Shown here: positions 15,831 to 33,317 of the stretch, piece by piece
Layout: the number at the start of each line of letters is the position of its first letter
Position numbering within the stretch: position 1 is the first letter of the stretch
Source: Thalassomonas sp. RHCl1
GTDB taxonomy: Bacteria > Pseudomonadota > Gammaproteobacteria > Enterobacterales > Alteromonadaceae
Direction: 5' to 3'
DNA length: 64,000 nucleotides
Assembly: GCF_947387555.1 (NCBI RefSeq)
Contig: NZ_CANDNZ010000002.1
Location: 806,001 to 870,000, forward strand
Made by a program: the position numbers and the translations under genes
The notes under the pieces: generated by a model
What the model saw: the letters and a program-made list of their open reading frames with translations, nothing else
Database searches by the model: none
What the model was told of the DNA's origin: nothing

Positions 15831-18305
15831 ATGGATACCAATATGTTGCAAACTAATAACAAGAAATACGATACAAAACTGATCAATGCGTTAATTCCCA
15901 TTACCTGTAAGAACAAGCTTGAATCTACTTTGATCAGTTTGACGCCAAAAGAAAATAAAAGCACCCGCTTTTTGATCAAAATGGAGCTGGCACGGTTAAA
16001 AACCGCTTGTGTCCGCGCCATAGATTTACGCCGTAAAACCAAAGAAGCGTGCGAAGATTATGTTTTTGCCGACATCACCCATTACCTGGATCAAAAATCC
16101 GTCAGTATTTTTGAATATCTGATCAAACAATATGGCGGCGAATACACGATTGGTGTCTATGAAGCCGTGCTTGCCGCGGCAACGGATCCTTCCAGTGCCA
16201 ATGTCTTGCAGGAGCTGGAGCAAGCTTCACAAAATTTCGAACGTTTTGATGTTGAGCATTTATATTTTGGCGACTACCGCACCCGCAACGAAGACCGTAT
16301 CCACTTTCGCTCTGAAATCCTGCTGGCCGTAGATGAGCAGGAATTGACCACTTTTACAGCAGATATTTCCACCGTCGGTATCCGCTTTTTATTGCCGGAA
16401 GAGGCCAAGCTCGCCAAAGGTCAGGAATTTAAAATACAGTTTGCCGAAATAGCCAAAAATTATGTCGGCGAAATATTGGAGAAGTTTGTCAATTATAAAG
16501 TAGTCTCTGTTGACAGCAATGACGAAAAAACCTGGATACGGGCCTTGCGTACCAGCTCTAATGCCAAGCTGGATGAGTTTTTAACCACTTTTATCAAGTC
16601 TCAAAAAGTATTTAACCGGGTAGACGCCTCGGATCTTGAGCCGGTATTGCTAAACAAGGGTTATGAAAAACTTTATATGCCAAAAAGCAGCGCCCTGCCG
16701 CTATTTTTCAATGGCCAGGGGCAGCTCAATTATATCCTTTCTTCCGAGCGGAACCAGGAAGCATTGGACTACTGGCATAACCAGAACAAACAAAACATTT
16801 TACCCTTCGCTTTAACCCCCAAGCGCATTAAACTGCTGCTGCAACAAAATAAATCAGGCATTACCACGGCTTTGTACGGTTTTACCCTGGTAAAACAAAA
16901 CAGCCGCCTTTATTTTGTCGCCACCGAACAAGAGCTTGAGCAAACCGGGCTGTTACCCGCCTTTATCGCGTTGGGATTAAAATATAAAAGCCTGCGCGTA
17001 TTTAAACTGCAGCTGGCCATTATCAGCAGCCGCTTTGACCAGTTGGGGCTTGAAGCCGACGGCCTGGCGCCGATAGCCAAAGAAAGGCTGCAAAAGCTGC
17101 GTTTTTGCGGCGCCATCACAGATATCACCCACGACGAGATGCTGGCAGATTATCAGGCAAAAGCTTTTAGCGCCAGCTCGAAGGATTTGCAGCAATTACG
17201 CCGCTTTATGGTGGCGGGTCAGTCAGGAGCGACGGATATTATTCCGGTGAAATTTATTTCCAAGCGCAAAGAAGCCCGTTACGACTACAAAATGCAGCTA
17301 AGGGTTATTAAAAATGACAGCCGCTATATCGGCTACAGCAAAAATGTTTCGGTGCGCGGACTGCAGGTGGAATTAGAGTCCGCCATTACCGCCAAATCGG
17401 GAGATTTGCTGACCATAGAACTGCCGGGAAAAACACCGGAAGATGGCAGCTCCCGTCCGTTTGCTATAGTGGCCATCAATGAATCAAAAACCATTTTGCA
17501 TTTAAAATCCGCTTCGCTTGAACACAATATCGATAACCAGAACTTCTTCCACCTGCTTAAAGATTATGTCGACCAGCAAGTGGATAAAACCCCGACCAAA
17601 AACAAAGGCCTGTCGGAAGGTTTATGCCGCTTGTACACCAAACACGGCCAACTTAACCTAGTGTTTTTATCGAAGCAAAAAAGCCGTTACCAGGCCTCGC
17701 GTTTAGCCACTCACAGGAATAAATCGCCATTAAACCAGCTATTGTCGGTATGCTCGGCGAAAAGCATCGCGAAAAACAAAGCACAGGCCAATAAAAGCGC
17801 TGAGCCGGTAAAAAAGAGGACAAACGAGGCATTGCCCGGCCAGGCCAATACCGATTTTAACCTTTACCCGATTTTAAATTCACCGCTCAATGACATCATG
17901 CAGTCGACCCAGTTTAAATGCCTCAGCCATAAGCACCAGCCGTTAACAGCCAGGTTATTTATTTTTGTCGATAACAAAAACAAGGATGAAATCAAAATCA
18001 TCAGCAAGTTTTCATCGGAGCTGACCTCCCCTAAGCTCAGGGAGATCTTTTTAAGTAATGCCCGTACCCGCGGCGAAGTCTATGTGTTGCAACTTGAGTT
18101 GTTAAAAACGCCGGAAGTTGACTGCCAGTTTATCGACGACCGCATTGCCGGATTAAAGACCTATTCCCGCTATCGCATCGACGGTATCAAAGACGAGTTG
18201 GCTAAAGTGGAAGGCGTACTCAATATTGTCGATATTACCGCTGAAACCTTGCAGCGCATGGCCTTAAAAACACAGCCGAAAACAGCGGCAAGAAACCCGA
18301 GTTAA
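15831..18305 (+). CDS. Large cytoplasmic protein with two PilZ (c-di-GMP) domains
   Basis: An 824-residue protein with no signal peptide or membrane helix. Two PilZ domains are visible: around residues 145-230 (RNEDRIHFR, then DISTVGIRF) and around 480-580 (RKEARYDYKM, then NVSVRGLQVELES). Both keep the RxxxR and D/NxSxxG motifs that bind cyclic-di-GMP. A Lys/Arg-rich helical N-terminus precedes them, and the remaining regions are unrecognised. Proteins of this size and layout occur across Alteromonadales and are probably c-di-GMP receptors acting on motility or surface attachment. No ribosome site is obvious before the ATG at 15831; the ATG five codons on is an alternative. It seems monocistronic: a strong hairpin follows at 18355. 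Confidence 0.85.
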   Translation: MDTNMLQTNNKKYDTKLINALIPITCKNKLESTLISLTPKENKSTRFLIKMELARLKTACVRAIDLRRKTKEACEDYVFADITHYLDQKSVSIFEYLIKQYGGEYTIGVYEAVLAAATDPSSANVLQELEQASQNFERFDVEHLYFGDYRTRNEDRIHFRSEILLAVDEQELTTFTADISTVGIRFLLPEEAKLAKGQEFKIQFAEIAKNYVGEILEKFVNYKVVSVDSNDEKTWIRALRTSSNAKLDEFLTTFIKSQKVFNRVDASDLEPVLLNKGYEKLYMPKSSALPLFFNGQGQLNYILSSERNQEALDYWHNQNKQNILPFALTPKRIKLLLQQNKSGITTALYGFTLVKQNSRLYFVATEQELEQTGLLPAFIALGLKYKSLRVFKLQLAIISSRFDQLGLEADGLAPIAKERLQKLRFCGAITDITHDEMLADYQAKAFSASSKDLQQLRRFMVAGQSGATDIIPVKFISKRKEARYDYKMQLRVIKNDSRYIGYSKNVSVRGLQVELESAITAKSGDLLTIELPGKTPEDGSSRPFAIVAINESKTILHLKSASLEHNIDNQNFFHLLKDYVDQQVDKTPTKNKGLSEGLCRLYTKHGQLNLVFLSKQKSRYQASRLATHRNKSPLNQLLSVCSAKSIAKNKAQANKSAEPVKKRTNEALPGQANTDFNLYPILNSPLNDIMQSTQFKCLSHKHQPLTARLFIFVDNKNKDEIKIISKFSSELTSPKLREIFLSNARTRGEVYVLQLELLKTPEVDCQFIDDRIAGLKTYSRYRIDGIKDELAKVEGVLNIVDITAETLQRMALKTQPKTAARNPS

Positions 18306-19230: not shown

Positions 19231-20172
19231 TCAATTAAATGCCGATAACTGCATACCGCCGTTGATTTCTATGCTGTCGCAGGCAAGGCGAATTTCTCCC
19301 GAGCGCCGTTCGATGGCCTGCGGCAATGCCAGGCACTGAGGCGCTGCACTGATCAGCTGTTTTCTGAAACGGTAGATCTGGATATTAATATGATTTTCAT
19401 TGAGTTTAAGCATCTTGCCCAGGGCTTCTTTATCCAGCCAGCCCTGATCGGCTTTGATCAGGCCCGCCTCTTTATCGGTCAGGCGCTGACGGGCCAACAG
19501 CAGCAATAAATAGTGGTGATTACGCTGCTCCAGATTTATCTGGTGCTCCCCCATCTGCACCGTCAGGGCAACATGTTCTTCATCCTGGCTGACATCAAAA
19601 GTCATGCCCAACCGGGTCAACTGCTGGTAATTACCGCTGACAACCCGGGTCGCCTCACTGGGTTTGGTTTCAACAAAACGCCAGATATGCTCTTGCGTCC
19701 CCACCAAATCACCGTTTTTTAACTCAGAAATTCCGGCCGCACTTTCACAAACCCAGTTGCCACAGGTATTTTGATACAAGGTAATTTCAGGAGACTCTTC
19801 GCTGGGCAGCACCATAATATCTTCAAGCATAAGCCGCTCAAGTCCCGGTGTTTGCGGCACCAGCATACTTTTGGGGGCATCAAGATTAAGCATTTGCCAG
19901 GTTTCCGCCTCCAGGCTGCCAAAATTGAGCTTATCATCCAAAGATAAAGGCATTTTTATGCCCTTAGGGACAAGCTTGCCGTTAACGAAAGTGCCGTTGG
20001 TACTGCTGTCTTGCAATAACCAATGTTCGCCGTCCCATAAAATAGTGGCATGCAAACGTGAGGCGTCCAGGTTGGTTAATTCGGTATTGGTTGCCCCGCG
20101 ATGACGGCCAAAAACATGCTGTACTGACAGATTCACTACATCTTGCGTATTAAGATTGAGTAATATCGCCAT
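19231..20172 (-). CDS. FHA-domain protein with winged-helix C-terminus
   Basis: A 313-residue cytoplasmic protein. The N-terminal FHA domain (residues 1-85) has all the phosphothreonine-binding elements: FGRHRG, then SRLHATILWDG, then DSSTNGTFVNGKLV. The C-terminal part (about 225-300) has LLLLLARQRL, GWLDKEALGKML and NIQIYRFRKQLI, like the winged helix of OmpR-type DNA-binding domains. It is 129 bases after the asparagine synthase, on the same strand as the TOMM-type cluster that begins with a Ser/Thr kinase. FHA domains read kinase-phosphorylated Thr, so a kinase-to-reader link inside one cluster is a natural inference. Its placement as the last gene of the operon is likely but not proved. 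Confidence 0.87.
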   Translation of the reverse strand: MAILLNLNTQDVVNLSVQHVFGRHRGATNTELTNLDASRLHATILWDGEHWLLQDSSTNGTFVNGKLVPKGIKMPLSLDDKLNFGSLEAETWQMLNLDAPKSMLVPQTPGLERLMLEDIMVLPSEESPEITLYQNTCGNWVCESAAGISELKNGDLVGTQEHIWRFVETKPSEATRVVSGNYQQLTRLGMTFDVSQDEEHVALTVQMGEHQINLEQRNHHYLLLLLARQRLTDKEAGLIKADQGWLDKEALGKMLKLNENHINIQIYRFRKQLISAAPQCLALPQAIERRSGEIRLACDSIEINGGMQLSAFN

Positions 20173-20301
20173 CTAAGTTCCCTTGTGTTTTTATTTATGC
20201 TTCGAGCTTTAGCTCAAGTTTACTGTTTTCTCGGATGAAGTAAATTATTTAATCCGCATAGCCTATATTGAAACCTTGATTGCTAAAGCTTTCCCTGTGT
20301 T

Positions 20302-22134
20302 TTATAAACTCAGGCTAAAGTGTTTTTGCAATACCATTAAACTGCTCAAATGCATAAAAACAGGATCCAATCCGGCCTGCTCTGCCAGGTCTAATTGGCA
20401 GGCTTCAAGATAAAGCCTGGCCACCTTCTCTTTGCAATAGCAATCCGGCAGATAAGCCAGATCAAGAAAATATCCCTGAAAAAGCTCTGCCAAAGGCCCC
20501 TTATTATTAAGGCTTGCCGGTGCACCGATAAAAGGTCTTTTTACCTGTCTGGCATAACTTTCCGGTATAAATTTGCGGGCAACTTGACGTAAGATACGCT
20601 TATCGGTTAACCCGTCAAACTTATAGTTCACGGGTAAACCATGAATAAAGGCCACCAGGGCATTATCCAAGAACGGTGGCCGCCCTTCAATACCATTGGC
20701 CATCTCGGTTCTGTCTGCCAATGCGCCTAAGTTATAACTTTGAAAGACCGACTGATAATGTAACCGTTGCGATAGCTCGATAGGGTGACGGGCATTGCCG
20801 AGCCCATTACCAGCACTAAAAGATAAGGATGCGGTATTTTCGCCATCAACTCTTAACCCGGCTAATATCGATGCTACCGGCAAGGCATGCACGACCTGGG
20901 CAGGCAATTGCCCGGTTTGTTTTTTCAGCAGCTCTAACGTTTTGTGCCAAGGTTGCGGAAAGACATGTACTTGGCTATACGGCCCGGTCAGATCTTGCCT
21001 GAAAAAGCCATAACCCAACAGGGATTCATCCGCCCCCTCCCCCGTGAGCACGGTTTTATGGCCTGCAGCGGCTAATGTTTTGCTTAAATAGAGTTTGGCG
21101 GCGACATTAATGTTTGGCACCGGCATTTCGCAGTGAATAACGGCATGGGCAAAGTTATCCGCCAGCACAGTGTCGTTAACTTCAACAATGTGATGGTGAA
21201 CCCCGACTTCCCCGGCAAAAGCTTGCGCCTGTCGGCTTTCATCCAGGTGCCGGTTTTCAAAACCTATACTGTAGGCATTTACCGAGCCGGTTAACCGGGC
21301 CGCTATTGCCGTGATCACAGAGGAATCAATGCCGCTGCTTAAATAGGCCTGATTACTTTTATCCTTTAACAGCCGCTTATCTATTGCCTGAAACAGCAAG
21401 CTTTCAAACTCGGTGCAGGCCTGTTCAAAAGTCGCTGACACCGGGGGAAAAGCCGACGGCTCCAGCGGCGACTTTTCCAGATAGGGAAAATGTTCAACTC
21501 CTGCTTGCGAGACTTTTAAAAGGTGTCCCGGCGGCAAGCTGTAGATGCCTTCCACAAAGGTTTGATTGCTTGTCTGTACAAAGTATTCCGCCTGCTGCAA
21601 ATAGTGCGGCTCCCATTTAGCCGGCACACCATAAGCCAGCAGGGCCTTTATTTCTGACGCCGCCAGTATTTGTCCCTGGTATGAACAATAAAATAAGGGT
21701 TTAATGCCATGGCGATCCCGCCCCAGATAGGCCGTTTTGCTGTCCCTGTCCCAGACGGCAAATGAGAATTCGCCGTCAAGGGTCTTTACTGCCTCGATAC
21801 CTTTAGCGGCAATTAAATGCAATAAATACTCGCTGTCGCTTAACGTGGTAAATACCGCTCCCAGGTTTTCCAGTTCGTCCCGGTTATTGTAAAGCTCGCC
21901 ATTGACGGCAACTGTCAGGCGGCCATCAGCAGAATGCATCGGCTGATGGCCGCCAATTTCATCATTAATCGCCAGCCGGGTATGCCCGATAGCCGCCTGG
22001 TTTTTTTCAGCAAACCAGAGCCTGAGATCATCCGGCCCTCTATGGGCCAGGGCAGAGACGGCGCTGCGAAACCTTTCTCTGATATCGGATGTATCACAGG
22101 CAGGAGGTGAATAACAAAAAACTATACCGCACAT
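20302..22134 (-). CDS. asnB: Glutamine-hydrolysing asparagine synthase of the TOMM-type cluster
   Basis: The start is the ATG at 22134, since processing must expose Cys2 (MCGIVF). About 610 residues, usual length for AsnB. The N-terminal class II glutaminase domain has Cys2, HRGPDD, VNGELYNN and LDGEFSFAVWD; the synthase domain has the ATP pyrophosphatase loop YLSSGIDSSV. The enzyme makes amides from acids with glutamine and ATP. In peptide clusters, homologues close lasso rings or amidate side chains, so it could tailor the cluster product; it could also be ordinary AsnB. Only 26 bases separate it from the YcaO gene upstream. A 14-base tandem duplication spans its start codon and leaves a decoy ATG 14 bases upstream, nearer the AAAGG ribosome site. 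Confidence 0.88.
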   Translation of the reverse strand: MCGIVFCYSPPACDTSDIRERFRSAVSALAHRGPDDLRLWFAEKNQAAIGHTRLAINDEIGGHQPMHSADGRLTVAVNGELYNNRDELENLGAVFTTLSDSEYLLHLIAAKGIEAVKTLDGEFSFAVWDRDSKTAYLGRDRHGIKPLFYCSYQGQILAASEIKALLAYGVPAKWEPHYLQQAEYFVQTSNQTFVEGIYSLPPGHLLKVSQAGVEHFPYLEKSPLEPSAFPPVSATFEQACTEFESLLFQAIDKRLLKDKSNQAYLSSGIDSSVITAIAARLTGSVNAYSIGFENRHLDESRQAQAFAGEVGVHHHIVEVNDTVLADNFAHAVIHCEMPVPNINVAAKLYLSKTLAAAGHKTVLTGEGADESLLGYGFFRQDLTGPYSQVHVFPQPWHKTLELLKKQTGQLPAQVVHALPVASILAGLRVDGENTASLSFSAGNGLGNARHPIELSQRLHYQSVFQSYNLGALADRTEMANGIEGRPPFLDNALVAFIHGLPVNYKFDGLTDKRILRQVARKFIPESYARQVKRPFIGAPASLNNKGPLAELFQGYFLDLAYLPDCYCKEKVARLYLEACQLDLAEQAGLDPVFMHLSSLMVLQKHFSLSL

Positions 22135-22151
22135 AAAATACCGCACATAAA
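22124..22151. repeat. 14-base tandem duplication over the asnB start
   Basis: The unit ATACCGCACATAAA occurs exactly twice, at 22124-22137 and 22138-22151. On the coding (minus) strand each copy carries ATGTGCGGTAT. The upstream ATG (22148) is the one close to AAAGG, but its frame reads MCGILCAV and stops at 22122. The downstream ATG (22134) gives the full protein. Removal of one copy would put the ribosome site directly before the true start. Confidence 0.85.
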
Positions 22152-22160
22152 ATAAAACCT

Positions 22161-24305
22161 TTAGATATAAAGCGCTTGCTGGTTAATGCTCGATTCCGTA
22201 TTGGCCTTATCCAGCCAGCCTAAAGTTAACGGCGCCTGATACAAACGTTCGTTCGCCAGCTGGGGCCAGATATGGCAAAGTCCGGGCACAAAAACCTTCA
22301 CCGCTTTAATGGGTAAAGGTGCACGGGAGTAATTCACCGCCAGGGTTTCAAAACCCAGGGTTTCAAGTTTTGCCACGATATTGAGGATATCGGTTTTAAG
22401 ATCGCCGCTTGATATCAAGCTGTCCTTGATGGTTTTTGCTTGCTGCGCTGGCAATAAAAAAGCTTCTTCCCTGACGGCATTAAAATCAAAAGACGCCCCC
22501 TTTTGCTCGCGGATGGGGATAAGCTGGCATAATTCCGTTAACGCCCGCTGCGCTGCCAGCTCAGGTTGTAAATGACAGCCAAAGCCAAAACTCAACCCTC
22601 CAGCTTTAAGGTCCCGGGCAACAGCCGCCATCACCGGCACCCCGATATCATGGCTTAGGTCCAGCACCCAAAAGTCATACCCGCCAAGGCTTGATTTCAG
22701 TTTATCAAAATGTCCGCTATCAAGCCTGTTCAGGTCAAATGCCGGTCTTTCAAGCCGGTTATACCACCACAAGGCAGTTGCATCCCGCTCTATTAATTCA
22801 AATAACCCCTGCAGTATCGCCTCTTCCAGGTTATTGCCGGCGGCACAGCCATTAGAATGCCAGCGGCCAAACCTGTCATCATCAAAGGGAATATTGGCAA
22901 AACAGGATGCCAGCGGCACATACACCTGATCTTTTGTGGTCAATGACCAGCTGGGAAGCCAGTGTATCTTGCTGCCGTCATATCTACGGGCCGCCTGCTT
23001 TAACTGCGCATCCGCATGTTTGGGATCTGCGAACTTTTGATATTGTGCCTGACTGTAGGGCGCCAATTGCTGGAAGTCATAATAAGGTTTATCCAATTCT
23101 TGAGCTGCAGCCAAATGCAGCGGCTCATCTCCCTGGTAAAGGGCGCTGTAACGCTCTATGGTTTCACATAAAGCGCTGACCCTGGATTGGACGTCACCGA
23201 CCCCTTTACCCATGCAGATCTGTACAAAACGGTTGTTGTCTAGTTGCAAACCATCTTTTGCCGCCGGGGATTTAAAAAACGCCGCCGAATAAATTTTAAT
23301 GGCATTGCTTTCGGTGCCTTTCACCGGGCGAAGATGTGTGATCACCCCGGTCAGCGGACTGATAAACGGCGTAATGTTTTGCAATGTCTGCTCCGCAGCA
23401 AGCGTGCGGGAGCCGCCATCTCGGTTAAATGCCAGCGGACAGCTCTGTAAAAGCAAAGGTTGGAGGATTTGCCTGGAAAAATCCTCATCACCTTCCCCGG
23501 CTAATACTAAAGGATGGGCCTGGACTTGATTGCCGGCAACTTCCAGAGAAATCAATTGCTGCTGAGGTGAATGGATTTGCGCACTCAGCAGGCGGGTGAA
23601 TATCCCTTGCAGCTCGGTGCTATATTGCCTGCCGACGGTAAAGGGAATACATCTGCTATCACCGGGAAATAGACGTTTAACCAGCGAAAGTACCGGGTTG
23701 TTATCCGTGAGCCGCTTTTGCAATGCCCGGCAAAAACGGCCGGCACTTGCTCCTGGGATCAGCGGAGAAACCAGGATTTTCTCCCCGGTCACTTTAATAA
23801 AGCACAAATCATAGTGCTCAATATCGCCGAGCCCGGTTGTCAGCTGGCAAAAGCTATCCACCAGCACAAAACAGAGCCTGCGCTCAGATGTGCGTTTTAT
23901 TTTAACGGCAGTAAACATATCCGCCAGATGGGCAATATTCTCCGCAGTTTCCTGGGACAGGTTGATAAAATAAAGCTCACCCGATTTTTCAATAACCCCC
24001 CGCCTTGCTACCGTTTGATTAATATAACAGCTTACTTCCTGGTTAGTTGATAAAATCTGCTGATGTTTCAACACCTTTATTTGTTGCAGAAAAGCCGCCC
24101 CTTTATCCGGCTCAAGCAGTAAACCGGATAATATATCCGGCAAAGTATTGATGCCGTCGATGAGGTTAATACCGGGAAAGTCGATATGACTGAGCATAAA
24201 GGAGTCGCTTTCACTGACCAGCAAAAGATCTTTATTTTCCAGCACATAAACATTAAATTTCGGATGCCAGGTGACAGTTTCTTGCACAACTACCTCAATA
24301 TTCAC
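22161..24305 (-). CDS. YcaO cyclodehydratase-like protein, diverged paralogue
   Basis: A 714-residue paralogue of the protein encoded just upstream. The C-terminal YcaO domain (about residues 320-714) keeps both ATP-binding motifs: SALCETIERYSAL and SNGCAAGNNLEEAILQGLFELIERDA. YcaO enzymes activate peptide backbone amides with ATP to form azolines. The N-terminal E1-like / leader-binding part is diverged: where the paralogue has CxxC and a CDC triplet, this protein has RFCRAL and QSCPLAF, so the Zn site looks lost. The C-terminus NQQALYI lacks the PxPxP tail of many azoline-forming YcaO proteins. The start is a GTG with a weak ribosome site, 31 bases after the paralogue. A regulatory or partner role for this copy is possible. 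Confidence 0.85.
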   Translation of the reverse strand: MNIEVVVQETVTWHPKFNVYVLENKDLLLVSESDSFMLSHIDFPGINLIDGINTLPDILSGLLLEPDKGAAFLQQIKVLKHQQILSTNQEVSCYINQTVARRGVIEKSGELYFINLSQETAENIAHLADMFTAVKIKRTSERRLCFVLVDSFCQLTTGLGDIEHYDLCFIKVTGEKILVSPLIPGASAGRFCRALQKRLTDNNPVLSLVKRLFPGDSRCIPFTVGRQYSTELQGIFTRLLSAQIHSPQQQLISLEVAGNQVQAHPLVLAGEGDEDFSRQILQPLLLQSCPLAFNRDGGSRTLAAEQTLQNITPFISPLTGVITHLRPVKGTESNAIKIYSAAFFKSPAAKDGLQLDNNRFVQICMGKGVGDVQSRVSALCETIERYSALYQGDEPLHLAAAQELDKPYYDFQQLAPYSQAQYQKFADPKHADAQLKQAARRYDGSKIHWLPSWSLTTKDQVYVPLASCFANIPFDDDRFGRWHSNGCAAGNNLEEAILQGLFELIERDATALWWYNRLERPAFDLNRLDSGHFDKLKSSLGGYDFWVLDLSHDIGVPVMAAVARDLKAGGLSFGFGCHLQPELAAQRALTELCQLIPIREQKGASFDFNAVREEAFLLPAQQAKTIKDSLISSGDLKTDILNIVAKLETLGFETLAVNYSRAPLPIKAVKVFVPGLCHIWPQLANERLYQAPLTLGWLDKANTESSINQQALYI

Positions 24306-24336
24306 TACTTGTTATCTTACTTTTATCGCCCGGACC

Positions 24337-26496
24337 TTAAATTAATAAGGCTTGTTGGTTCAATGACAATTCATCATTTTCCTGCGTTAACCAGCCCATC
24401 TCAACCGGCACTTGATATAGGCGTTTCGCGGCAAAATAAGGAAATAAATGGCAGGTACCGGGAATGATCACCTTAGCGGTATAAAGCGGCATATCCTGAC
24501 GGGTATAATCCAAAACCAGGGTTTCCAGCCCCAGGCTTTCTGCCCTAGCCTGGCAATAACGGATATCATCCAGGATATTGCTATGTTCCACCCGGGCATA
24601 ATCAGCAAAGCTGACGGTTTCCGCCGGGCCCGGCGTTAAATAGGCTTCCCGGCTGATGGCATCAAAATCAAAAGGCGCGGTATTATTGTTCCTGATCTCC
24701 GTGATCTGGCAAAGTTCGGTAAAAGCACGCTGGCTGGCAATAACAGGATCAAGATGACAACCAAAGCCAAAACACATTTTCTGCTGCGTTTTATGCCGAC
24801 TGATCGCGGCAATCACGGGAATGCCAAAATCATTAGTCAAATCCAGCGCCCAGTACTCCCATTCCCCCCCCAGGGTGTGGGATAACTGCCGATGTAAAAC
24901 ATCACTCATGCCGGAGAAGTCCATCGCCGGTCTTTGCAGCTTGTTATACCACCAGATGGCAATCGCATCTCTTTCAACAATTTCTAAAAAGCCTTGTAAT
25001 ACCGCTTCTTCCAGGCTGTTGCCGGCGGCGCCGCCATTATGATAAAAACGGCTGTACTTTTGCTCTTCAAAGGGGGTATTGGCATAACAATAACTTAAAG
25101 GCAGGTAACGTATTTTTTCTTGTGATAAAGACCATACCGGCGTCCAGTAAAGGGCACTATCTTCTTTGTGTTCAGTCGCTGCGTACAGCTTATGCTCGCT
25201 AAGCGGCTGCTCGATAAATGCCCGGTATTGCCGCTCGCTAAAGGGAGCAAGTTGCCGGGGAAAGATATAACTGTCATGGTGATAAGACGGCGCAGCATAA
25301 TGCATGGCTTCATCCCCTGTATATTGAGAGGCCAGCCTTTCAATGGCTTCACTTAATGCACTGGCCTGGGACTGCTGATCACAGATCCCCTTGCCCATAG
25401 TAGTATAAATGAAATTGGCATTGGACAGTGACTCAGTCGGCAGATGATGTAAATTGCCCGGATATTGGAAAAAGCCGCTGCGGTATATTTTATTTATCTT
25501 ATCCGAGTCTCCCGACAGACAGTTTATATGGGTCAACAAACCGCTGACCGGACTGATAACCCCTTTGAGCTTTTCTACTGTTAACTCAGGAGGCACACAG
25601 CGTACGCCGCCGTCTTTGCCGTCGGTTTTTTTTACCGGCTGCAGACTGAGCTTACCCCGCTCAAGCGGATTTACCGCGTTGCAATCACACTGGGGGCGGA
25701 AAATAACCGGATGACGGATAAGCTCATCCCCGGCCAGTTCATAAAAGTGTTCGGTTATTTGCCCTGATAGCAGGTTATCAATATGGGATAAGGCTGTTTT
25801 ACAGGCTTTTTCAATGGCATGATGCTCAAACCTTACCGGTACCGGACGTGTCAAAGAAGGTATTCCCTGCCCCTGCTCGTAACTGATACACCTGAGGATT
25901 TTATTCGCCTTCATACGATAATTAAGGCATTGCCAGCAGGCATTATCCTTTTCAGGAAGAAAATAAGGCCCGATAAAACTGCTTTGCCCGGTGAACTTGA
26001 GCAACAACCAGGGCTGGCCGTTTGATAAAAACTGACGGTTTATGCTTTCCAGCCTGGGATCCAAATAATCATCGCAGAGCACCAAGCTGATATCATAGTC
26101 GGCCGTCAAAGCCGCCAGGGTTGATTTGAACGCTTCGCCAAAAGCATACCGGGACAGGTAAATATTTCCACCCGGGCAAGTAGTGATATCATCCTCAAAA
26201 TTAATCAGGTGATACTGCTGATTTTCCCCGCAGCTTTCACTAACCTCTTTAACATATCCAGAATTGATAAAACCAACCAGCTGCTGATAAAGCGGTACCT
26301 GCTGTGCTGCTATGGCTTTTTTAAATACTGCCAGCAAGGAAGTATCCGTTTGAATAACAGCCTGAATAAAGTCATAAAGCTCACGAGAGATGAGCACTTC
26401 TTCATCATCAGCAAGCAGCAGCATATGCTCGGGATCTAAAGGGCTGATCGAATACTTTTCATGCCAAAAAAAATGGCTCTGTGCTGATTTCATCAT
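24337..26496 (-). CDS. YcaO cyclodehydratase fused to E1-like leader-binding domain
   Basis: A 719-residue fused TOMM cyclodehydratase. Residues 1-95 look like a winged-helix peptide-recognition region; residues 100-300 are E1-like with a Zn-type pair CWQC and a later CDC. The YcaO domain (about 310-719) has SALSEAIERLAS and NGGAAGNSLEEAVLQGFLEIVERDA, the ATP- and Mg-binding motifs, plus the GFGCHLDP segment. It should convert Cys, Ser or Thr of a precursor into thiazolines or oxazolines. The C-terminus reads NQQALLI, without PxPxP. It starts at ATGATG 70 bases after the 392-residue protein, beyond a strong hairpin terminator. No flavin dehydrogenase that would make the aromatic azoles is nearby. 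Confidence 0.88.
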   Translation of the reverse strand: MMKSAQSHFFWHEKYSISPLDPEHMLLLADDEEVLISRELYDFIQAVIQTDTSLLAVFKKAIAAQQVPLYQQLVGFINSGYVKEVSESCGENQQYHLINFEDDITTCPGGNIYLSRYAFGEAFKSTLAALTADYDISLVLCDDYLDPRLESINRQFLSNGQPWLLLKFTGQSSFIGPYFLPEKDNACWQCLNYRMKANKILRCISYEQGQGIPSLTRPVPVRFEHHAIEKACKTALSHIDNLLSGQITEHFYELAGDELIRHPVIFRPQCDCNAVNPLERGKLSLQPVKKTDGKDGGVRCVPPELTVEKLKGVISPVSGLLTHINCLSGDSDKINKIYRSGFFQYPGNLHHLPTESLSNANFIYTTMGKGICDQQSQASALSEAIERLASQYTGDEAMHYAAPSYHHDSYIFPRQLAPFSERQYRAFIEQPLSEHKLYAATEHKEDSALYWTPVWSLSQEKIRYLPLSYCYANTPFEEQKYSRFYHNGGAAGNSLEEAVLQGFLEIVERDAIAIWWYNKLQRPAMDFSGMSDVLHRQLSHTLGGEWEYWALDLTNDFGIPVIAAISRHKTQQKMCFGFGCHLDPVIASQRAFTELCQITEIRNNNTAPFDFDAISREAYLTPGPAETVSFADYARVEHSNILDDIRYCQARAESLGLETLVLDYTRQDMPLYTAKVIIPGTCHLFPYFAAKRLYQVPVEMGWLTQENDELSLNQQALLI

Positions 26497-26515
26497 CTTT
26501 ACTTACATGATTTAC

Positions 26516-26549
26516 AAAAAGGCCATGCTCCCTTATCGGGGACATGGCC
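26516..26549 (-). terminator. Intrinsic terminator inside the TOMM-type operon
   Basis: Read on the minus strand, GGCCATG and CATGGCC with inner CCCC/GGG pairing (26521-26549) form a stable hairpin followed by five T (26520-26516). It lies 17 bases after the stop of the 392-residue protein and 20 bases before the first YcaO gene. A partial terminator here would keep modifying-enzyme transcripts below those of the upstream gene. Confidence 0.75.
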
Positions 26550-26566
26550 ATTACCGGGAAACGAGA

Positions 26567-27745
26567 TTAACAGGTAAAGGGGAACGCCGAATCATCTATG
26601 TTATAGCGGTTTAATGCTACCGGTGCCATAGCGTCAACTTTAGGCGGCACAGGTACCACAAGCTCCATCCCCTGCAGAGGTAATTGCGGGTTTTCATAGC
26701 GGGTATCCGGGTTGATCTGACCTTCTGTAAAGGCATTACAGGTTTGCTGATCATATTGCCAGGTCCAGTTACCCTTGCCGTTTTCATCTTCAGCGTATAT
26801 GGCATCTTCATCTTCAAACAGGATCAGATCTAAATGGAACGGATAATCGTATTCCAAAATATCTTTAAGCAATTTAATGGTTTGCCCAGGCTTATGACAA
26901 TCAAGATCTTTGGTGATAAACAAATTTCTCATGTCTTCATTGGTCCACAACAAAGAAACTAAATTGGCCATAACCGCACCGAATGAGATATACAGGGAGG
27001 CATCATCGGATAAGTCATAAGAAGGTCTTGGCACCTTAGGATCCAATACCGTAGGGATCAATTCCACCGGGCTGCGACAATCCAGGGCCTTATTATATTT
27101 CTTCAAATAAAAGTCCTGGTAGGCCGCTGAAAAATATACACAATATCTGCCATAGGCTTTAATAAACAAGGCACAGTCGTAATCAAAAAACTCTTCAACC
27201 AAAGATAAGTCGCCCAGAGAACTGGCGCCTGAAGCTTTGTAAGTCAGGGATTGTTGCGACTCAAGCTTTTCATTGAACATCCAGGGAGATTCATGGATAA
27301 AGGAAGCAATGGCGCGAGTTAAAAAGTGACTCTCAGTAGCGGGATCCGGAGCAACCGGTTTTTTTGGTAATTTCAGGGTAATGCGGTTATTCAGATAAGG
27401 CTGTAACATATACTGACCGCTTAATTCGTTATAATACGGTGCTATTTCCTCATACCAAAACAGGTAGGTATTATATTCTCCTTCGGCATCTATCTGTTGT
27501 ATCTCAACGCTTTCTTCAGGATTTTTAGGCCCCAATTGCAGCAACATTTTAACCCAATATTTGTCTTTGAAAGATTCTCCGTTGAAACTTGAAGGATCTA
27601 CAGTTCTGAAATCCAGATTTTCCTTGTTACACTGAGCGATAAAACGTTCGATATCATCACTGTCAGTCCAGATTTGCGCAATAGATTGCAGATGAAGATC
27701 TCTTAATCTTGTTAAGTCCGTCAGTATATTGAGTGGTTTAATCAT
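26567..27745 (-). CDS. Candidate TOMM substrate: internally duplicated 392-residue protein
   Basis: I do not recognise it with certainty. Two related blocks are visible. Block one: IAQIWTDSDD with Trp26, then hydrophobic strands, then RITLKLPKKP ending at 130. Block two: VSLLWTNEDM with Trp267, then similar strands, then ELVVPVPPKV ending at 370. The distance from Trp to the PxK motif is about 101 and 100 residues. NHLP-type precursor leaders have a W-x-D motif and a terminal LPxKP strand, and paired domains are reported for the BMA_0021/0022 TOMM family, as I recall it. A 22-residue tail follows, ending SAFPFTC, so a short core may lie there. It overlaps the kinase gene by 8 bases and is followed by a terminator. 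A non-substrate partner protein is the alternative. Confidence 0.6.
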   Translation of the reverse strand: MIKPLNILTDLTRLRDLHLQSIAQIWTDSDDIERFIAQCNKENLDFRTVDPSSFNGESFKDKYWVKMLLQLGPKNPEESVEIQQIDAEGEYNTYLFWYEEIAPYYNELSGQYMLQPYLNNRITLKLPKKPVAPDPATESHFLTRAIASFIHESPWMFNEKLESQQSLTYKASGASSLGDLSLVEEFFDYDCALFIKAYGRYCVYFSAAYQDFYLKKYNKALDCRSPVELIPTVLDPKVPRPSYDLSDDASLYISFGAVMANLVSLLWTNEDMRNLFITKDLDCHKPGQTIKLLKDILEYDYPFHLDLILFEDEDAIYAEDENGKGNWTWQYDQQTCNAFTEGQINPDTRYENPQLPLQGMELVVPVPPKVDAMAPVALNRYNIDDSAFPFTC

Positions 27746-30700
27746 TTAGCTTCTCGTTTTTATTATTTAACAGGGTTGAAATATCAGTAGTAATTAAGTG
27801 TTCGCTGTATTTTGCACCTATGTCTTGCGCCACGCTTAATCCCTGGCGTAATTCAGTTAAGGCCAAATCTTGTTCATGTTCAAAATGCTGTAACCGGCAC
27901 TGGGCCAGTTTCCAATAAAGCTGGGGTAAATAATAATACTCCCCTATTTCCCGGCACAACTCGATACAAGCGTTATAGCGGCTCACCGCCGATACCGGGT
28001 CGCCATTGGCGATAAAGACATCCGCAATCAGGGATGAAAAATAAGGCACCGCATGTTTAGAGTAATTGGCATCGAGTATTTCCCGGTAATCCGCTTCTTT
28101 ACTCATATCGCCGCTTGCCCATGCCTGAATTAAACCGCCGTAAGCCTGATAAATCGGCAACTCATATTCATCAGAGAGCGATACCAGCTCACTGGCCAGC
28201 AATAAAGTTTTCTCCCGGTTACCGACATACTGGTTGACAATAGCGGCATACATCAGCGCAATAGCAACCGATGGAATATGCGCGATTTCTCTTGCCTTTG
28301 CCAGCCCCAGCTCGGCATGCTCCAGTGCCAGAGACACCTCCCCTAAGTCCCAGTAAATACGCCCTAAGGTGGATAGGGCAAAAACCCGCGAATTCCAGCC
28401 ATATTTACTTAAGTGCTCGGCATCGGTGTCATCAAAAGCAATTTTACTCGCCGCCTCCATGGCCTGCCTGCCCCCCTGACAATCGCCGCCGGTATAGCGA
28501 AAGTAACCTAAACAGCTCAGCGCCGCGGCCCGATCTGAATCACTGGAAAAACGGCTGATATCCTCAAGCTCGGCTTCAACATCAGCCAAATCGCCTCTAT
28601 CGCCAACCACCAGGCCATAAATGAGTTTCCACCACAGATGGGTAACAAAATCACTGTTAAGCTGACGGCTTTGCCGGTAATCTTCCCCTTCGCTTTTTAG
28701 CAGGGCAATCGACGAGTCGGTATAATATTTAACTTCTTCCGCCGCCCAGCCGCTGACCTGCATATGGGCCGTGGTCAAAATCGAATTAATCTGCAACTTA
28801 TGAAGCGTTTGCTGCCCGCCAGGCAATTGTTCAAGCCACACCAGAGCCGTCTCCGCCTGGGTAATAGATTCCTGCGAGGCCGACTGTTTTAACATACTCT
28901 CAGCCGCTAAGATGCCAAACTCTACCGCTTTAGCAAAAACTTCTGCCAAAGCATAATGTTGCGCAATCAGGCTGAAATTTATTTGAGATAAATCAAACAA
29001 ATCCGATTCAAGCATACTCGCCACCACGGCATGGGACTTAATCCGTTGCTCTTTAAGCATGGAATCATAGGCTGCATCCCTGACCAGGGCATGCTTAAAG
29101 ATATAACTGTCGCCGGCAACCTTGCGCTGCAAGATGATCAGATCCGCTTCGATTAATTCATTCAGATCAGTTTGCAGCTGGGCTTCACTGTGATTAGAAG
29201 CGGCGGCCAGCAGCTTATACTCAAACTCCCGACCGATAGTTGCCGCCAGCTGGGCCGTTTCCTTGGCATAAACCAGGGTGTCGAGCTTTTGCTGTAAAGA
29301 ATCACGTAAACTGCCCGGAACTTCATTGATATTATCGGGGTCAACAAAATCGGTAATGCCGTTTAAATGCCGTACCAGGGATTTTTGTTTCAGCATATTC
29401 ACCAACTCTTCAATAAATAGCGGAATGCCATCGGTACGGCTAACCACCACATCCAGTAAATTTGCCGATACCTGTTGCTTATCAAACAGGTTGACAACAA
29501 ACTGTGCTGTCTTTTCCTGGCTCAGCTTATTCAGGGCTATCGACTTTACATTACTGGCCGTCAAGACCTCAGGCAAAGGCTGACGGGAAGTGCTGATAAA
29601 CACATCCCGTGCCCCTTGACTGGCAGTGCTCAGCCGGGCAATAAATTCCAAGGTCGTCGGATCCGCCCAATGCAAATCTTCAAATAAAAATAAACGTCTG
29701 TGGTGTGTTTCATTGGCATCCCCCGGGTCATCACCGAGTAATAAAGCCGCTAAGGCGTCAAATAAAATTTGTTTCTGCATATCCGGGCTTAAGGGTTTCA
29801 CCTGAATATCCTGCGGTAACGGCAGGCCCAGCCAAGAGCATAAGATCAAAAATGCATCCTCACCCTTGCTGTCCTGTGGATCTAAGCCGAGCATTTCATC
29901 ACGCAGTTTACCGGAGCCATCTTCCGGTGCCAGCGTATCAAGGGAATACTTATATTTGATCAGGTTTAACACCGGAAATAAGGCATTATTTTGATATTCG
30001 GGCAGACACTGAGTCACATAATGGCTAAAGCTTTGGGCATCATTTCTTAACTCAAACACTAAACGGGACTTACCTATCCCGGCCTCACCAAAAACATGGG
30101 CGCATCTGACGGCGTTGTTTTGATTGTTCCCCTGGTTTTCAGCGGTATCCACCAGGGATTTGAGCCAGGCCAACTCTTGTTCCCGGCCGATAAAGTCATG
30201 ATTGTTCTTATTGCCGCGCAAAAAGCCAAATGCTTCAACCTGGCGCTCACCAATCAGGGAATACAAAGGCCTGGGTTGTGGAGTAATGCCAACAATTTGC
30301 ACTTGTTGCGGCTGAAAAGTTAAATAGCTGTCCAGTAACAGTTTACTGTTTTGTGTAATTAACACCTGATTATCTGCAGCTAAACGGGCAAGATCCAGGG
30401 CTATATTGGCAGTATCTCCTTCAGGTGTAGCATCGGCATAGGTGGTCACAATCCCGGTATGCATGCCCATATGAAGGCGGATTTCAATGCCCTGATTTTG
30501 TCTTAACAATGAGTTTCGATGGCTCAGCTGGCTACTGATTTCCAAGGCCGTGCGGGCACATAAACGGCTGTCATTATCACTGACCGCAGGGTAACCATAA
30601 TAAAATAACAGGGTATTGCCTAAACTACCGACATGAAAAGCACCGTAACGTATGGCGGTATCGATACACTGGGCTTTTTGATCCCTGTGAATGGCATCGA

Positions 30701-31808
30701 CTACCTCGCCATCGGGCTGGGTATCACCAATCGATTTAACATTGAGCACAACCGCCAGTGCCGTGATTTGCTTACGCTCGGTTAAGCTGGCATAGGTTGA
30801 GTGAACAGCACTGTTGTCAGTGATCAAGGTTTCATTGATCAGGGTTTCATTATCACCCGGCTGCACCACTAAGGTATTATCGGTGGAAAAATGCTCGCTG
30901 GTATGCTGGTTAAGCTCTCCCACCAGGGTAGAAAAATTAAGCTGATGGAATTCATGATAAAGTTCGGCAGCATCCGCCGCCCTTTCTGAGGCTTTCTTAT
31001 TCAGCACCCGACGCAATAAAGCACTGACACTGTGCCCGGCAAGGGAAGCCGGCAAAGGTACATTCGACTGACTTAACTGCTTGTGAAAAACCGATGCCAG
31101 GCTGGTGCCGGAAATGGCGGGCTGTCCGGTTAAGCATTCGATAAACACTAACCCCCAGACATAAATATCGGTTTTAGGTGTCGGCGGCTCTCCCCGTAAC
31201 TGCTCCGGTGCGCTATAGGACGGCGTGCCCAGTGTTTCCTGGGTCAAGGTAATGCTTTTATAATCAAGCTGGCGCACTTCGTTGACTAAAGTACCGATAC
31301 CAAAATCGAGCACCTTGGCATGAATTTTAGCACCAACTTTGGTCAACATGATATTCGCCGGTTTGATATCCCGGTGGATCACCCCCTGTTCATGGGCATG
31401 GGCCAGTGCATCGAGTACCTGCCCCATGACGGCAGCGGCATCAAGAGGAAGCAAGGCGCCGGAGTCTGCCAGGGTTTGTTTTAAGGTTTTCCCGTCCACA
31501 TATTCAAATACCGCATAAAGCAGGTTGTCATGGCAACAGCCCTTATCAAGCAGACGAACAATATTGGGATGCTGCAAGCGGCTGCATAACAGGGTTTCCC
31601 GATCGAAACGTTCGATATAGCGCTTTTTCTTGGCCTCATCAAAATCGCTGCTGACCGATAAAAACTTAATGGCAACATCTTGATTAGTATTAAGTTGTTT
31701 GGCCAGATAGACCTGACCGAAGCCTCCCTGACCTATTTTTCTGACCAGACGATAGGCATCTGAAACAAAGCCCAGCTCTGCTTCTAGTGTATTTATTGTT
31801 ATTGTCAT
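27738..31808 (-). CDS. TOMM-type kinase/cyclase/ATPase/TPR fusion protein
   Basis: About 1356 residues from the ATG at 31808 (a TTG ten codons upstream is the alternative). The Ser/Thr kinase (15-290) is complete: GQGGFGQV, Lys48 in VAIK, HRDIKPAN at 145-152, DFG at 168-170, SAPE. A class III cyclase-like domain (340-520) follows, but the metal-binding Asp positions are Val354 and Asn398 and the catalytic Arg is Asp472, so it is probably inactive. Then come an AAA-like ATPase with Walker A GEAGIGKSR (574-582) and Walker B FLFEDLHWAD, and about 500 residues of TPR-like helices. The order matches the kinase/cyclase fusion family known beside TOMM clusters. It is first in the operon, and its stop overlaps the next gene. 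Confidence 0.9.
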   Translation of the reverse strand: MTITINTLEAELGFVSDAYRLVRKIGQGGFGQVYLAKQLNTNQDVAIKFLSVSSDFDEAKKKRYIERFDRETLLCSRLQHPNIVRLLDKGCCHDNLLYAVFEYVDGKTLKQTLADSGALLPLDAAAVMGQVLDALAHAHEQGVIHRDIKPANIMLTKVGAKIHAKVLDFGIGTLVNEVRQLDYKSITLTQETLGTPSYSAPEQLRGEPPTPKTDIYVWGLVFIECLTGQPAISGTSLASVFHKQLSQSNVPLPASLAGHSVSALLRRVLNKKASERAADAAELYHEFHQLNFSTLVGELNQHTSEHFSTDNTLVVQPGDNETLINETLITDNSAVHSTYASLTERKQITALAVVLNVKSIGDTQPDGEVVDAIHRDQKAQCIDTAIRYGAFHVGSLGNTLLFYYGYPAVSDNDSRLCARTALEISSQLSHRNSLLRQNQGIEIRLHMGMHTGIVTTYADATPEGDTANIALDLARLAADNQVLITQNSKLLLDSYLTFQPQQVQIVGITPQPRPLYSLIGERQVEAFGFLRGNKNNHDFIGREQELAWLKSLVDTAENQGNNQNNAVRCAHVFGEAGIGKSRLVFELRNDAQSFSHYVTQCLPEYQNNALFPVLNLIKYKYSLDTLAPEDGSGKLRDEMLGLDPQDSKGEDAFLILCSWLGLPLPQDIQVKPLSPDMQKQILFDALAALLLGDDPGDANETHHRRLFLFEDLHWADPTTLEFIARLSTASQGARDVFISTSRQPLPEVLTASNVKSIALNKLSQEKTAQFVVNLFDKQQVSANLLDVVVSRTDGIPLFIEELVNMLKQKSLVRHLNGITDFVDPDNINEVPGSLRDSLQQKLDTLVYAKETAQLAATIGREFEYKLLAAASNHSEAQLQTDLNELIEADLIILQRKVAGDSYIFKHALVRDAAYDSMLKEQRIKSHAVVASMLESDLFDLSQINFSLIAQHYALAEVFAKAVEFGILAAESMLKQSASQESITQAETALVWLEQLPGGQQTLHKLQINSILTTAHMQVSGWAAEEVKYYTDSSIALLKSEGEDYRQSRQLNSDFVTHLWWKLIYGLVVGDRGDLADVEAELEDISRFSSDSDRAAALSCLGYFRYTGGDCQGGRQAMEAASKIAFDDTDAEHLSKYGWNSRVFALSTLGRIYWDLGEVSLALEHAELGLAKAREIAHIPSVAIALMYAAIVNQYVGNREKTLLLASELVSLSDEYELPIYQAYGGLIQAWASGDMSKEADYREILDANYSKHAVPYFSSLIADVFIANGDPVSAVSRYNACIELCREIGEYYYLPQLYWKLAQCRLQHFEHEQDLALTELRQGLSVAQDIGAKYSEHLITTDISTLLNNKNEKLND

Positions 31809-32075
31809 ACCACTATAACCCTGAAGCTTAAACAACAAGCAGCCGACCTTATTGCAGGACTGTAATGCTAACTGTGCTTGTTTTACTAAACGGGCTTTGA
31901 GTGTATCACTATGTTTTTATCAGTTTCAATCAGTTATCTGTTTAATGTCAATGGGCTTTTTCAACCATTCATTTTCCCCCCAATTCTTGTACAAAAATTA
32001 TCTTTTTGGCTAAAAAATAACGCCACCATTGGCCATGATAAAATGAGGCGTGCAGATTCAGCCGTAAAGATAGCA

Positions 32076-33317
32076 TTAAAACCTGTAGTTATATTGCGCC
32101 GACACTAAGGTCGCATCCCCGTTTGAGGTAAATTGCCAGGCCTGGCCTAAGTCATCGGTTTCGGTAAACTCCACTTCTTCCCCCTTAATAAAGCTCATGC
32201 CAAGATCAAAAGACGAGGCATTTTTAAAGTGATAAGTCATGCCCGTGCTGTACCAGATGCGATTACTGTCGGGAATGGAAATTGAGCGGTAGGCCTGCTC
32301 TATCGGGGTTTCATCATAGGCAAGCCCTGCCCTGAGAGTCAGCACATCTTCCAGGTTATAGCTGATGCCGACGGCCGAACGCACCGAGTTTTCAAAATAT
32401 TCATCTTTTTCAAATACCGGGCTTTCTACCCCTTCGGCATAAGCTTCCAGTCGCTCGAAACTGCTCCAGCCGGTCCACTGCACGCTGTAATGCAGGGCCA
32501 GATTATCGCTCAACTGATGAAAGCCGGATAATTCTGCAATATCGGGTAAGGTAATTTCCAGCTCCCCCGCCAGGGTTTCTCCCGCCAGGCCGCCAAATGA
32601 AAGCGGCAGGTCATTGCTATAATCACCGGTTAAGATCAGATCAACCTGGCTACGATAGGCCAGAGAAATCCTGTGGTTGTCGTTGATTTCATATAACACC
32701 CCGACATTATATCCGTAGGCGATATCATCCCCGGTCATATTGGCCGCTTCTGTTTCCTGGGCTATGCCGTAGGGGTTGGCGCCAAAGTGCCTGATCAAAG
32801 TGGCATCGGCGTAGACCAGGTTAACGCCGAGCCCCAGGCTAAAGTGCCGGTTGAAGCGATAGGCACCGCTGGCATTGATATTTATTGTCGTCAGGGAAGT
32901 TTCACCGGCGAGCTGGCCTGCCGGATAATCATCGGGGAGTTCGGTAGCTAAGCCAAAATTTGAAAAAGCGCCGAGTCCGACAACAAGGTTTTTATTCAGT
33001 GGCTGGATATAATACAGCGCCGGGATCAAAGCATCGGGAGCAATACTGTCCTCATCAAGCTCGTTATTACTGCTGCCTTCAAGGGATATATCCGGCCCGA
33101 TGGCGGTGCCGACCACAGAAAATTCCGCTTGGCTGAACATGGTCATGGCACCGGGATTTCTCGCCATTACCGCGGCATTATCACTGACGGCCCCTTCTCC
33201 GGCAAATGCCCGGCCAAGGCCGGAGGCGCTGTGCTCATTGAGGGCAAAGGCAGCGCTATATGCCTCAAAGGCCAACAGGTTTAGGGTCAGCGCCAGGACT
33301 GTTTTTTTCAAATTCAT
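32076..33317 (-). CDS. FadL/OmpP1-family outer-membrane transporter
   Basis: A 413-residue beta-barrel protein with a signal peptide (MNLKKTVLALTLNLLAFEAYS, cleavage before AAFALNEHS). The mature N-terminus SASGLGRAFAGEGAVSDNAAVMARNPGAM is the FadL hallmark, with the NPAxM-like NPGAM. Antiparallel strands follow, and the protein ends in a terminal Phe (AQYNYRF), as outer-membrane barrels do. FadL proteins let long-chain fatty acids or other hydrophobic compounds cross the outer membrane. AAGGAAAAATAA precedes the ATG. A sequence AATGGTACAT lies about 80 bases upstream, the same 10-mer found before the LytS/LytT operon, so the adjacent LytTR regulator may control it. The substrate cannot be read. 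Confidence 0.92.
   Translation of the reverse strand: MNLKKTVLALTLNLLAFEAYSAAFALNEHSASGLGRAFAGEGAVSDNAAVMARNPGAMTMFSQAEFSVVGTAIGPDISLEGSSNNELDEDSIAPDALIPALYYIQPLNKNLVVGLGAFSNFGLATELPDDYPAGQLAGETSLTTININASGAYRFNRHFSLGLGVNLVYADATLIRHFGANPYGIAQETEAANMTGDDIAYGYNVGVLYEINDNHRISLAYRSQVDLILTGDYSNDLPLSFGGLAGETLAGELEITLPDIAELSGFHQLSDNLALHYSVQWTGWSSFERLEAYAEGVESPVFEKDEYFENSVRSAVGISYNLEDVLTLRAGLAYDETPIEQAYRSISIPDSNRIWYSTGMTYHFKNASSFDLGMSFIKGEEVEFTETDDLGQAWQFTSNGDATLVSAQYNYRF

Follow-up and report, generated by a model that had tools for sequence, protein, structure and literature searches.

Exchange of putative peptide-modification cassettes together with the C-terminal arm of a TIGR03903 kinase at one locus in Thalassomonas

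The locus studied here lies in a 64,000-nucleotide stretch of the genome of the marine bacterium Thalassomonas sp. RHCl1 (G000:C2:806001-870000, hereafter the window; G000 is its genome, assembled to 7.56 Mb in 39 contigs, and other G and L numbers denote compared genomes and loci). Six minus-strand genes encode a large TIGR03903-type kinase, a 392-aa putative precursor of a ribosomally synthesized and post-translationally modified peptide (RiPP), two YcaO proteins (YcaO-A and YcaO-B), an asparagine-synthase-like protein (AsnB) and a protein with a forkhead-associated (FHA) domain. Comparison within the genus revealed that the genes between kinase and FHA gene are replaced as a cassette, together with the tetratricopeptide repeat (TPR) arm that ends the kinase. 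The initial annotation, which had described the genes as a thiazole/oxazole-modified microcin (TOMM)-type cluster forming one phospho-signalled system, was right in part; cassette exchange and the arm swap were not noticed in it.

One site, three cassettes

TIGR03903 relatives (E values up to 1e-150) were found in six of 59 genomes, that of the window included, among them all four of the genus. Common to the four species are the flanks, the N-terminal ~925 residues of the kinase and the FHA gene, and three different cassettes lie in between: the precursor, YcaO-A, YcaO-B and AsnB in G000; a PhyH protein, a 165-aa precursor ending in QPFTCT, an amidohydrolase and a YcaO in G002 and G003; and a 271-aa protein, a YcaO, a TfuA and an NmrA-like protein in G001. 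DNA homology of the window with G001, G002 and G003 stops at 29041-29068 and resumes at 20184-20194; between these boundaries only pieces of the YcaO genes match G002 and G003, and nothing matches G001. Because the left edge falls inside the kinase gene, where the ATPase domain gives way to the TPR arm, that arm is part of the cassette. The features of the locus are as follows.

32076..33317, minus strand: 413-aa gene, shared flank upstream of the kinase, at the same position in G001, G002 and G003
31893..31938, minus strand: conserved block upstream of the kinase in the four-species alignment, a possible promoter or operator
29041..31808, minus strand: kinase gene, constant part (kinase, cyclase-like, ATPase), recognised by TIGR03903 and motifs and kept in sister species
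29041..29068, minus strand: left cassette boundary within the kinase gene, where DNA homology with G001, G002 and G003 ends
27741..29033, minus strand: kinase gene, exchangeable part, the C-terminal TPR arm (TPR_12 below cut-off), which swaps with the cassette
26567..27745, minus strand: 392-aa putative RiPP precursor of NHLP-Burk type (TIGR03795 below cut-off; C-terminal motif as in relatives)
26570..26587, minus strand: putative core AFPFTC, the final six precursor residues, an ending conserved in relatives
24337..26496, minus strand: YcaO-A, predicted cyclodehydratase with leader-binding domain and four zinc-type Cys (TIGR03882, PF02624, residues)
22161..24305, minus strand: YcaO-B, second YcaO, with a degenerate leader domain and retained ATP-site residues but without the Cys (profiles, residues)
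20302..22134, minus strand: AsnB, asparagine-synthase-like glutamine amidotransferase (TIGR01536; MCGI, SSGIDS)
20184..20194, minus strand: right cassette boundary, 12-22 nt ahead of the FHA start (DNA homology)
19231..20172, minus strand: constant part, FHA protein whose C-terminal half is predicted to form a winged helix (PF00498, conserved residues, model)
15831..18305, plus strand: 824-aa gene past the FHA gene, shared flank (DNA homology with G001, G002 and G003)

Open reading frames (ORFs) and translations reproduced the annotated order of the six genes and the gaps between them (-8, 70, 31, 26 and 129 bases), the 26-base gap being valid provided that AsnB starts at the ATG of MCGI (22134); the kinase start at 31808 is the earliest ATG in its ORF. 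A direct repeat upstream of the kinase in the window, read by eye, is not retained in the sister species.

The kinase proteins also diverge past their core. Compared in steps of 80 residues, the G000 core shares 46-99% identity with those of G001 and G002, with the lowest values around residues 561-720, and past the sequence FKHALVRDAAY pairs with different cassettes fall to 9-31%. Within the genus, the arms of G001 and G002, which have unlike cassettes, are 9-14% identical, and those of G002 and G003, which share one, 82-95%; the arms of G001 and G031, from different genera with the same TfuA cassette, reach 28-46%. The kinase reading frame of G003 is split into two overlapping ORFs (L029:6955-11236). 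TPR regions are generally able to diverge quickly, and the arm might simply have evolved fast without any exchange. This we regard as very improbable: it is contradicted by L048 and L069, which are 93% identical in DNA over 8.5 kb up to the boundary and show no match after it, and also by sister species carrying different genes and by arms agreeing across genera that share a cassette.

A second cluster of the same genome (C4:298136-309710) encodes a kinase, a 289-aa precursor ending in KIYPFTC, a 265-aa protein with BLAST similarity to a PhyH-type protein, two YcaO proteins and an FHA protein 34% identical to that of the window; its precursor scores 29.6 bits against TIGR03795 (cut-off 41).

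Arm similarity follows cargo across kinase loci

Probing named genomes with the ATPase region returned 265 relatives, the best 80 of which were kept; L089 yielded no kinase ORF, L027 and L028 were discarded as duplicates of L046 and L071, and 84 loci, five of them from the genus, were annotated. YcaO is present in 49 of the 84, AsnB in seven, and 22 carry an F3 protein and no YcaO. The same kinase core heads several other kinds of cassette, some without YcaO. Family labels were assigned from one to few members tested per family: the amidohydrolase, PhyH, TfuA and Irp3-like reductase labels pass Pfam cut-offs, and the radical SAM label is below its cut-off (21.6 versus 29.5) with Fer4_12 just above. 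The non-YcaO cassette (L048, L053, L040, L079 and others) consists of families F3, F6, F9 and F18, whose tested members gave no Pfam match; F3 proteins carry CxxCH (27/28), and the small proteins F6, F9 and F18 end in Trp (24/24).

After loci with short arms or lacking any cargo family of more than one member had been excluded, 81 of the 84 remained (3240 pairs); the flank families F5, F7 and F12 were not scored as cargo. Given core similarity, the association between arm similarity and cargo sharing was 0.48, a value reached by none of 999 label permutations, which ignore the relatedness of loci; core and arm similarity were unrelated (-0.02). Among 77 pairs with a core score of at least 0.8, 53 had an arm score below 0.1. 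Of the 73 pairs with an arm score above 0.3, 61 have half or more of their cargo families in common and two have none; both of these two involve L030, whose kinase ORF is partial. In 77 full-length kinases the kinase, cyclase and ATPase parts intercorrelate at 0.86-0.94, and the arm correlates with none of them. For the 34 loci with both precursor and YcaO, the association of arm with YcaO given core was 0.50 (0/999). Taken together, the evidence for exchange and for arm-cassette linkage is strong.

One alternative accepts the exchange and denies its functional meaning: recombination in the kinase core would carry along all downstream DNA, so that the arm hitch-hikes and is not functionally matched to the cargo. 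The arm does adjoin the cassette. Furthermore, homology reached the boundary in 290 pairs without shared cargo (loci without recognised cargo counted as non-sharing) and ended within 30 nt of it in 288; as homology must stop where sequences become unrelated, this common end point reflects a domain border and does not locate individual crossovers. Pairs with shared cargo extended more than 150 nt past the boundary in 21 of 238 cases. Against hitch-hiking, the co-inheritance of the three core domains suggests that crossovers are not scattered within the core, and a neutral exchange would more simply use a gene border, whereas the edge sits at a single domain junction within the kinase. We therefore consider hitch-hiking unlikely, if the most serious competitor to a cassette-matched arm.

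The window cassette as a unit

Every member of the window cassette has relatives in three Psychromonas loci: L123 (containing L031, P. aquimarina), L124 (L034, P. ossibalaenae) and L125 (containing L038, Psychromonas sp. Urea-02u-13). Identities are 39-41% for the arm, 40-48% for the precursor, 48-51% for YcaO-A, 50-53% for YcaO-B and 56-60% for AsnB. L123 and L124 each have two TIGR03903-type kinase genes, each followed by its own precursor-like gene, and the arm that matches the window is that of the kinase directly before the long precursor. Gene order varies: AsnB lies between the YcaO genes in L125, an opposite-strand ORF is interposed in L123 and L124, and in L124 a further kinase and a short precursor are also interposed. 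L125 ends with a 175-aa gene (its L036 relative is GGDEF-like by eye) and an FHA gene (56%). The presence of all members in the three loci indicates that AsnB, both YcaO proteins, precursor and arm form one unit, in agreement with the proposal that these genes and the kinase constitute a single system.

A search for YcaO relatives apart from the kinase, in 295 genomes of the order, also favoured a single system. YcaO-B relatives (E up to 1e-50) occur in six of the 295 genomes and the kinase (E up to 1e-120) in ten; all six are among the ten, with the YcaO on the contig of the kinase (Fisher p 2.4e-10, four of the six genomes being of one genus). YcaO-B relatives were thus always found with the kinase in these genomes, though AsnB accompanies few of the 84 kinase loci (7/84), as does an adjacent FHA gene (18/84). 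The fifth YcaO of the window genome, on the contig of the window (L018:8118-10352), is of the S12-accessory kind, an OsmC/YcaO fusion, and apparently unrelated to this system.

Domain composition of the kinase

The kinase protein scores 1025.5 bits against the TIGR03903 hidden Markov model (cut-off 705.75), and its kinase motifs (VAIK, HRDIKPAN and DFGIG) and Walker A motif (GEAGIGKS) are intact. The cyclase-like domain stays under the Pfam Guanylate_cyc cut-off (15.4 versus 21.9 bits) and seems inactive, as what we take to be its metal-site Asp residues appear replaced. The ATPase part is recognised by AAA_16 (52.1 bits, cut-off 32.6) and the TPR end weakly by TPR_12 (20.8, under 30.1); a search for a solved relative of the arm gave no more than an antibody chain (E 0.95). 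An anti-phage role was considered and rejected: 35 PADLOC families match the kinase protein, the best-matching stretch falling within residues 20-464, at the kinase end, for the 25 families listed, and none is matched by the other five cluster proteins.

The kinase protein also weakly matches the kinase regions of lanthionine synthetases (70.8 bits for a cut-off of 650, and 41 bits for one of 575). Like the kinase parts of LanL and LanKC, the protein could serve in tailoring and phosphorylate precursor Ser or Thr residues, with the TPR arm binding the substrate; the intact motifs and the Thr of the PFTC core would suit such a role. We judge it improbable, as the arm tracks YcaO far more than the precursor (0.50 versus 0.14), no lyase or cyclase gene was seen in the window cassette, and the ATPase part and FHA neighbour suggest signalling.

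Putative precursor and modification enzymes

The best reading of the 392-aa protein is that it is itself the RiPP precursor and that its short core is the C-terminal PFTC. Among 45 relatives adjoining such kinases, the ending P[FI][TSC] plus 1-3 residues is found in 43, and a P-x-x-P motif (43/43 and 42/43) and A-L-x-x-Y stand upstream of the ending in those 43 aligned relatives. The window protein has the C-terminal Cys and P-x-x-P of NHLP-Burk precursors and gave no Pfam match; it was filed as NHLP-Burk-like because its TIGR03795 score lies below the cut-off. A second copy of the precursor domain is detected in relatives (8.4e-15 in the second precursor of L055, 6.9e-15 in the first of L069). 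The structure model of the window precursor has low confidence (mean predicted local distance difference test score 62). A rule by which loci with AsnB have a precursor ending in PF[TS]C fits six loci (the window, L055, L069, L123, L124 and L125) and was abandoned for its exceptions: L017 has PFTC without AsnB, and L063 has AsnB with no such precursor seen.

Both YcaO proteins are well over the Pfam YcaO cut-off. YcaO-A scores 209.9 bits against TIGR03604, just under 219.25, and 63.6 against TIGR03882, over 36.9, which makes it a fusion of leader-binding domain and YcaO; YcaO-B stays below both cut-offs (204.5 and 17.8). YcaO-A carries four presumed zinc-type Cys, which YcaO-B lacks while retaining what we take to be the ATP-site residues. 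L038 and the second cluster of G000 likewise combine one Cys-bearing with one Cys-less YcaO. An Irp3-like thiazoline-imine reductase domain protein accompanies YcaO in other loci of the group, which fits a thiazoline product. The TOMM-type assignment holds, as an azoline-RiPP cluster of the NHLP-Burk kind.

AsnB scores 347.3 bits against TIGR01536 (cut-off 267.1) and has the motifs MCGI, with the nucleophile Cys at position 2, and SSGIDS, as expected of an amidotransferase; its closest solved relative is the hydroxyamidotransferase 7ylz (E 1.1e-31). Its sequence is compatible with a housekeeping enzyme, an option set aside because AsnB travels with the cassette.

The FHA protein, a probable regulator

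The FHA protein scores 47.6 bits against PF00498 (cut-off 20.7), and G22, R23, S38, H41, N59 and G60, presumably the phosphopeptide-binding residues, are invariant in 14 sequences. It is probably DNA-binding; its modelled C-terminal half has a strand and helix order like that of an OmpR-type winged helix. Foldseek matched the protein to EmbR structures, aligning the FHA part only (97 columns), and identity with type VI TagH was rejected (34.1 versus 120.25 bits, FHA region only). The family occurs in all six kinase genomes and in two of the 53 others (59 genomes), and members in G000:C5 (L118:6477-10670) and G010 (L119:8765-12903) are directly followed by a different kinase of 945-1009 aa. The protein is best seen as a kinase-reading regulator. 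The initial annotation inferred that it belongs to the same system; it forms instead part of a constant frame around exchangeable cassettes and is probably not part of the chemistry.

Family F12, GGDEF-like by eye, ends the cassette in L030, L036, L038/L125, L040, L041 and L047, just ahead of the FHA gene wherever that gene is visible. Pseudoalteromonas loci (e.g., L079 and L080) open their shared right flank not with FHA but with F7, a small outer-membrane-like predicted protein (~200 aa, present in 13 loci; classified by eye).

Functional interpretation

We propose, with slightly better than even confidence, that the locus is an exchangeable RiPP slot with a switch of the signal transduction ATPase with numerous domains (STAND) type, azoline chemistry and an FHA output. 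The kinase, cyclase-like and ATPase core and the FHA regulator form the constant frame, the TPR arm and peptide-making genes the exchangeable part. This anatomy and the exchange are observed; the chemistry and signalling that follow are inferred. YcaO-A would recognise a folded leader of the precursor and, probably with YcaO-B, cyclise the final Cys of PFTC, perhaps the preceding Thr too, to an azoline; the glutamine amidotransferase would then act on the carboxylate at the C-terminus, an amide being the simplest product. This order of a terminal azoline followed by amidation is suggested by the enzyme families present, and the C-terminus of thiostrepton is amidated by an asparagine-synthetase-like enzyme. 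In STAND switches a repeat arm senses and the opposite end acts, and the kinase protein has a similar order, with kinase, cyclase-like, ATPase and weakly matched TPR parts in a row. The cassette-matched arm would thus detect its cognate product or enzyme complex and activate the kinase, and the resulting phosphothreonine could be read by the FHA protein to control transcription. As the arm is swapped together with its cargo, product or enzyme sensing with FHA-mediated output is the simplest reading.

Several observations weigh against this proposal. The precursor reaches only 28.5 bits against TIGR03795 (residues 253-388, cut-off 41), and its internal repeat is not significant alone (0.031), its halves giving no significant hhalign match. 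AsnB may act on some other group. Of the 678 pairs with half or more of their cargo families in common, 415 had an arm score below 0.1, so the arm match holds for close cassettes and not for broad classes; the arm is also weakly associated with the precursor taken by itself (0.14, 21/999, 34 loci). On the output side, the winged helix comes from the model only (predicted template modelling score 0.49), with no profile hit in the Protein Data Bank and no sequence support in database searches; the FHA gene adjoins the cassette, after it, in 18 of 84 loci, and lies apart from the kinase in G020 and G031.

More generally, and at a confidence somewhat short of even, the TIGR03903 protein may, rather than being a TOMM accessory, be a STAND kinase that heads a general platform for exchangeable cargo, occurs mainly in marine bacteria and has a cargo-specific sensor arm; the constant head would sense the finished product and license expression via the constant FHA or another output. 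With similar reserve, its cargos would be of two kinds: YcaO accompanied by AsnB, by amidohydrolase and PhyH, by an Irp3-like reductase, by TfuA or by a radical-SAM-like protein, and a kind lacking YcaO that is built on a C-terminal-Trp protein with a CxxCH partner. The giant kinase beside NHLP-Burk clusters, so far unexplained, would gain a testable role, and its arm could predict the accompanying peptide chemistry. The constant core offers a mining handle for unrelated peptide-modifying cassettes, some without YcaO, and the exchange suggests a route by which bacteria replace an entire biosynthetic pathway yet retain its control circuit. The terminal PFTC core with a glutamine amidotransferase, if true, would be a compact route to a capped C-terminal azoline.

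Comparison with known systems

The available text on the NHLP-Burk TOMM group describes a C-terminal Cys, P-x-x-P, fused pairs in some genera and a large Ser/Thr kinase (Haft, Basu and Mitchell 2010, PMC2887384). The window cluster shares the C-terminal Cys, P-x-x-P, the leader-binding/YcaO fusion and the neighbouring large kinase, and differs in a precursor below the family cut-off, two YcaO proteins with AsnB, and an FHA regulator. An exchangeable cassette with a swapped kinase arm is not described for NHLP-Burk in the portion of PMC2887384 consulted, and the titles and abstract openings of open-licence PMC literature yielded no description of cassette exchange at such loci or of such an FHA pairing; kinase, FHA and asparagine are not mentioned in the accessible part of PMC4603692.

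According to the sections available, the YcaO MprC forms an azoline on a folded NHLP leader (PMC12455567). Folded NHLP leaders and a YcaO cyclodehydratase with leader-binding domain link the MprC/MprE azoline proteusins to the present cluster, whereas the MprE leaders have 81 residues, an MprD oxidase is present and no kinase is mentioned in those sections. AfsK/AfsR of Streptomyces, as summarised in the excerpt of PMC10936776, likewise combine a Ser/Thr kinase with a STAND module bearing TPR in the control of a biosynthetic pathway; there STAND and TPR lie on the transcription factor, here on the kinase, with the arm exchanged together with the cargo.

As in PknH/EmbR of mycobacteria, an FHA domain here stands on a kinase-reading and, by prediction, DNA-binding protein. 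EmbR pairs with PknH, and its domain order and other domains differ from those of the window FHA protein. NHLP-Burk-type clusters are themselves already known; what is new here is the genetics of cassette exchange.

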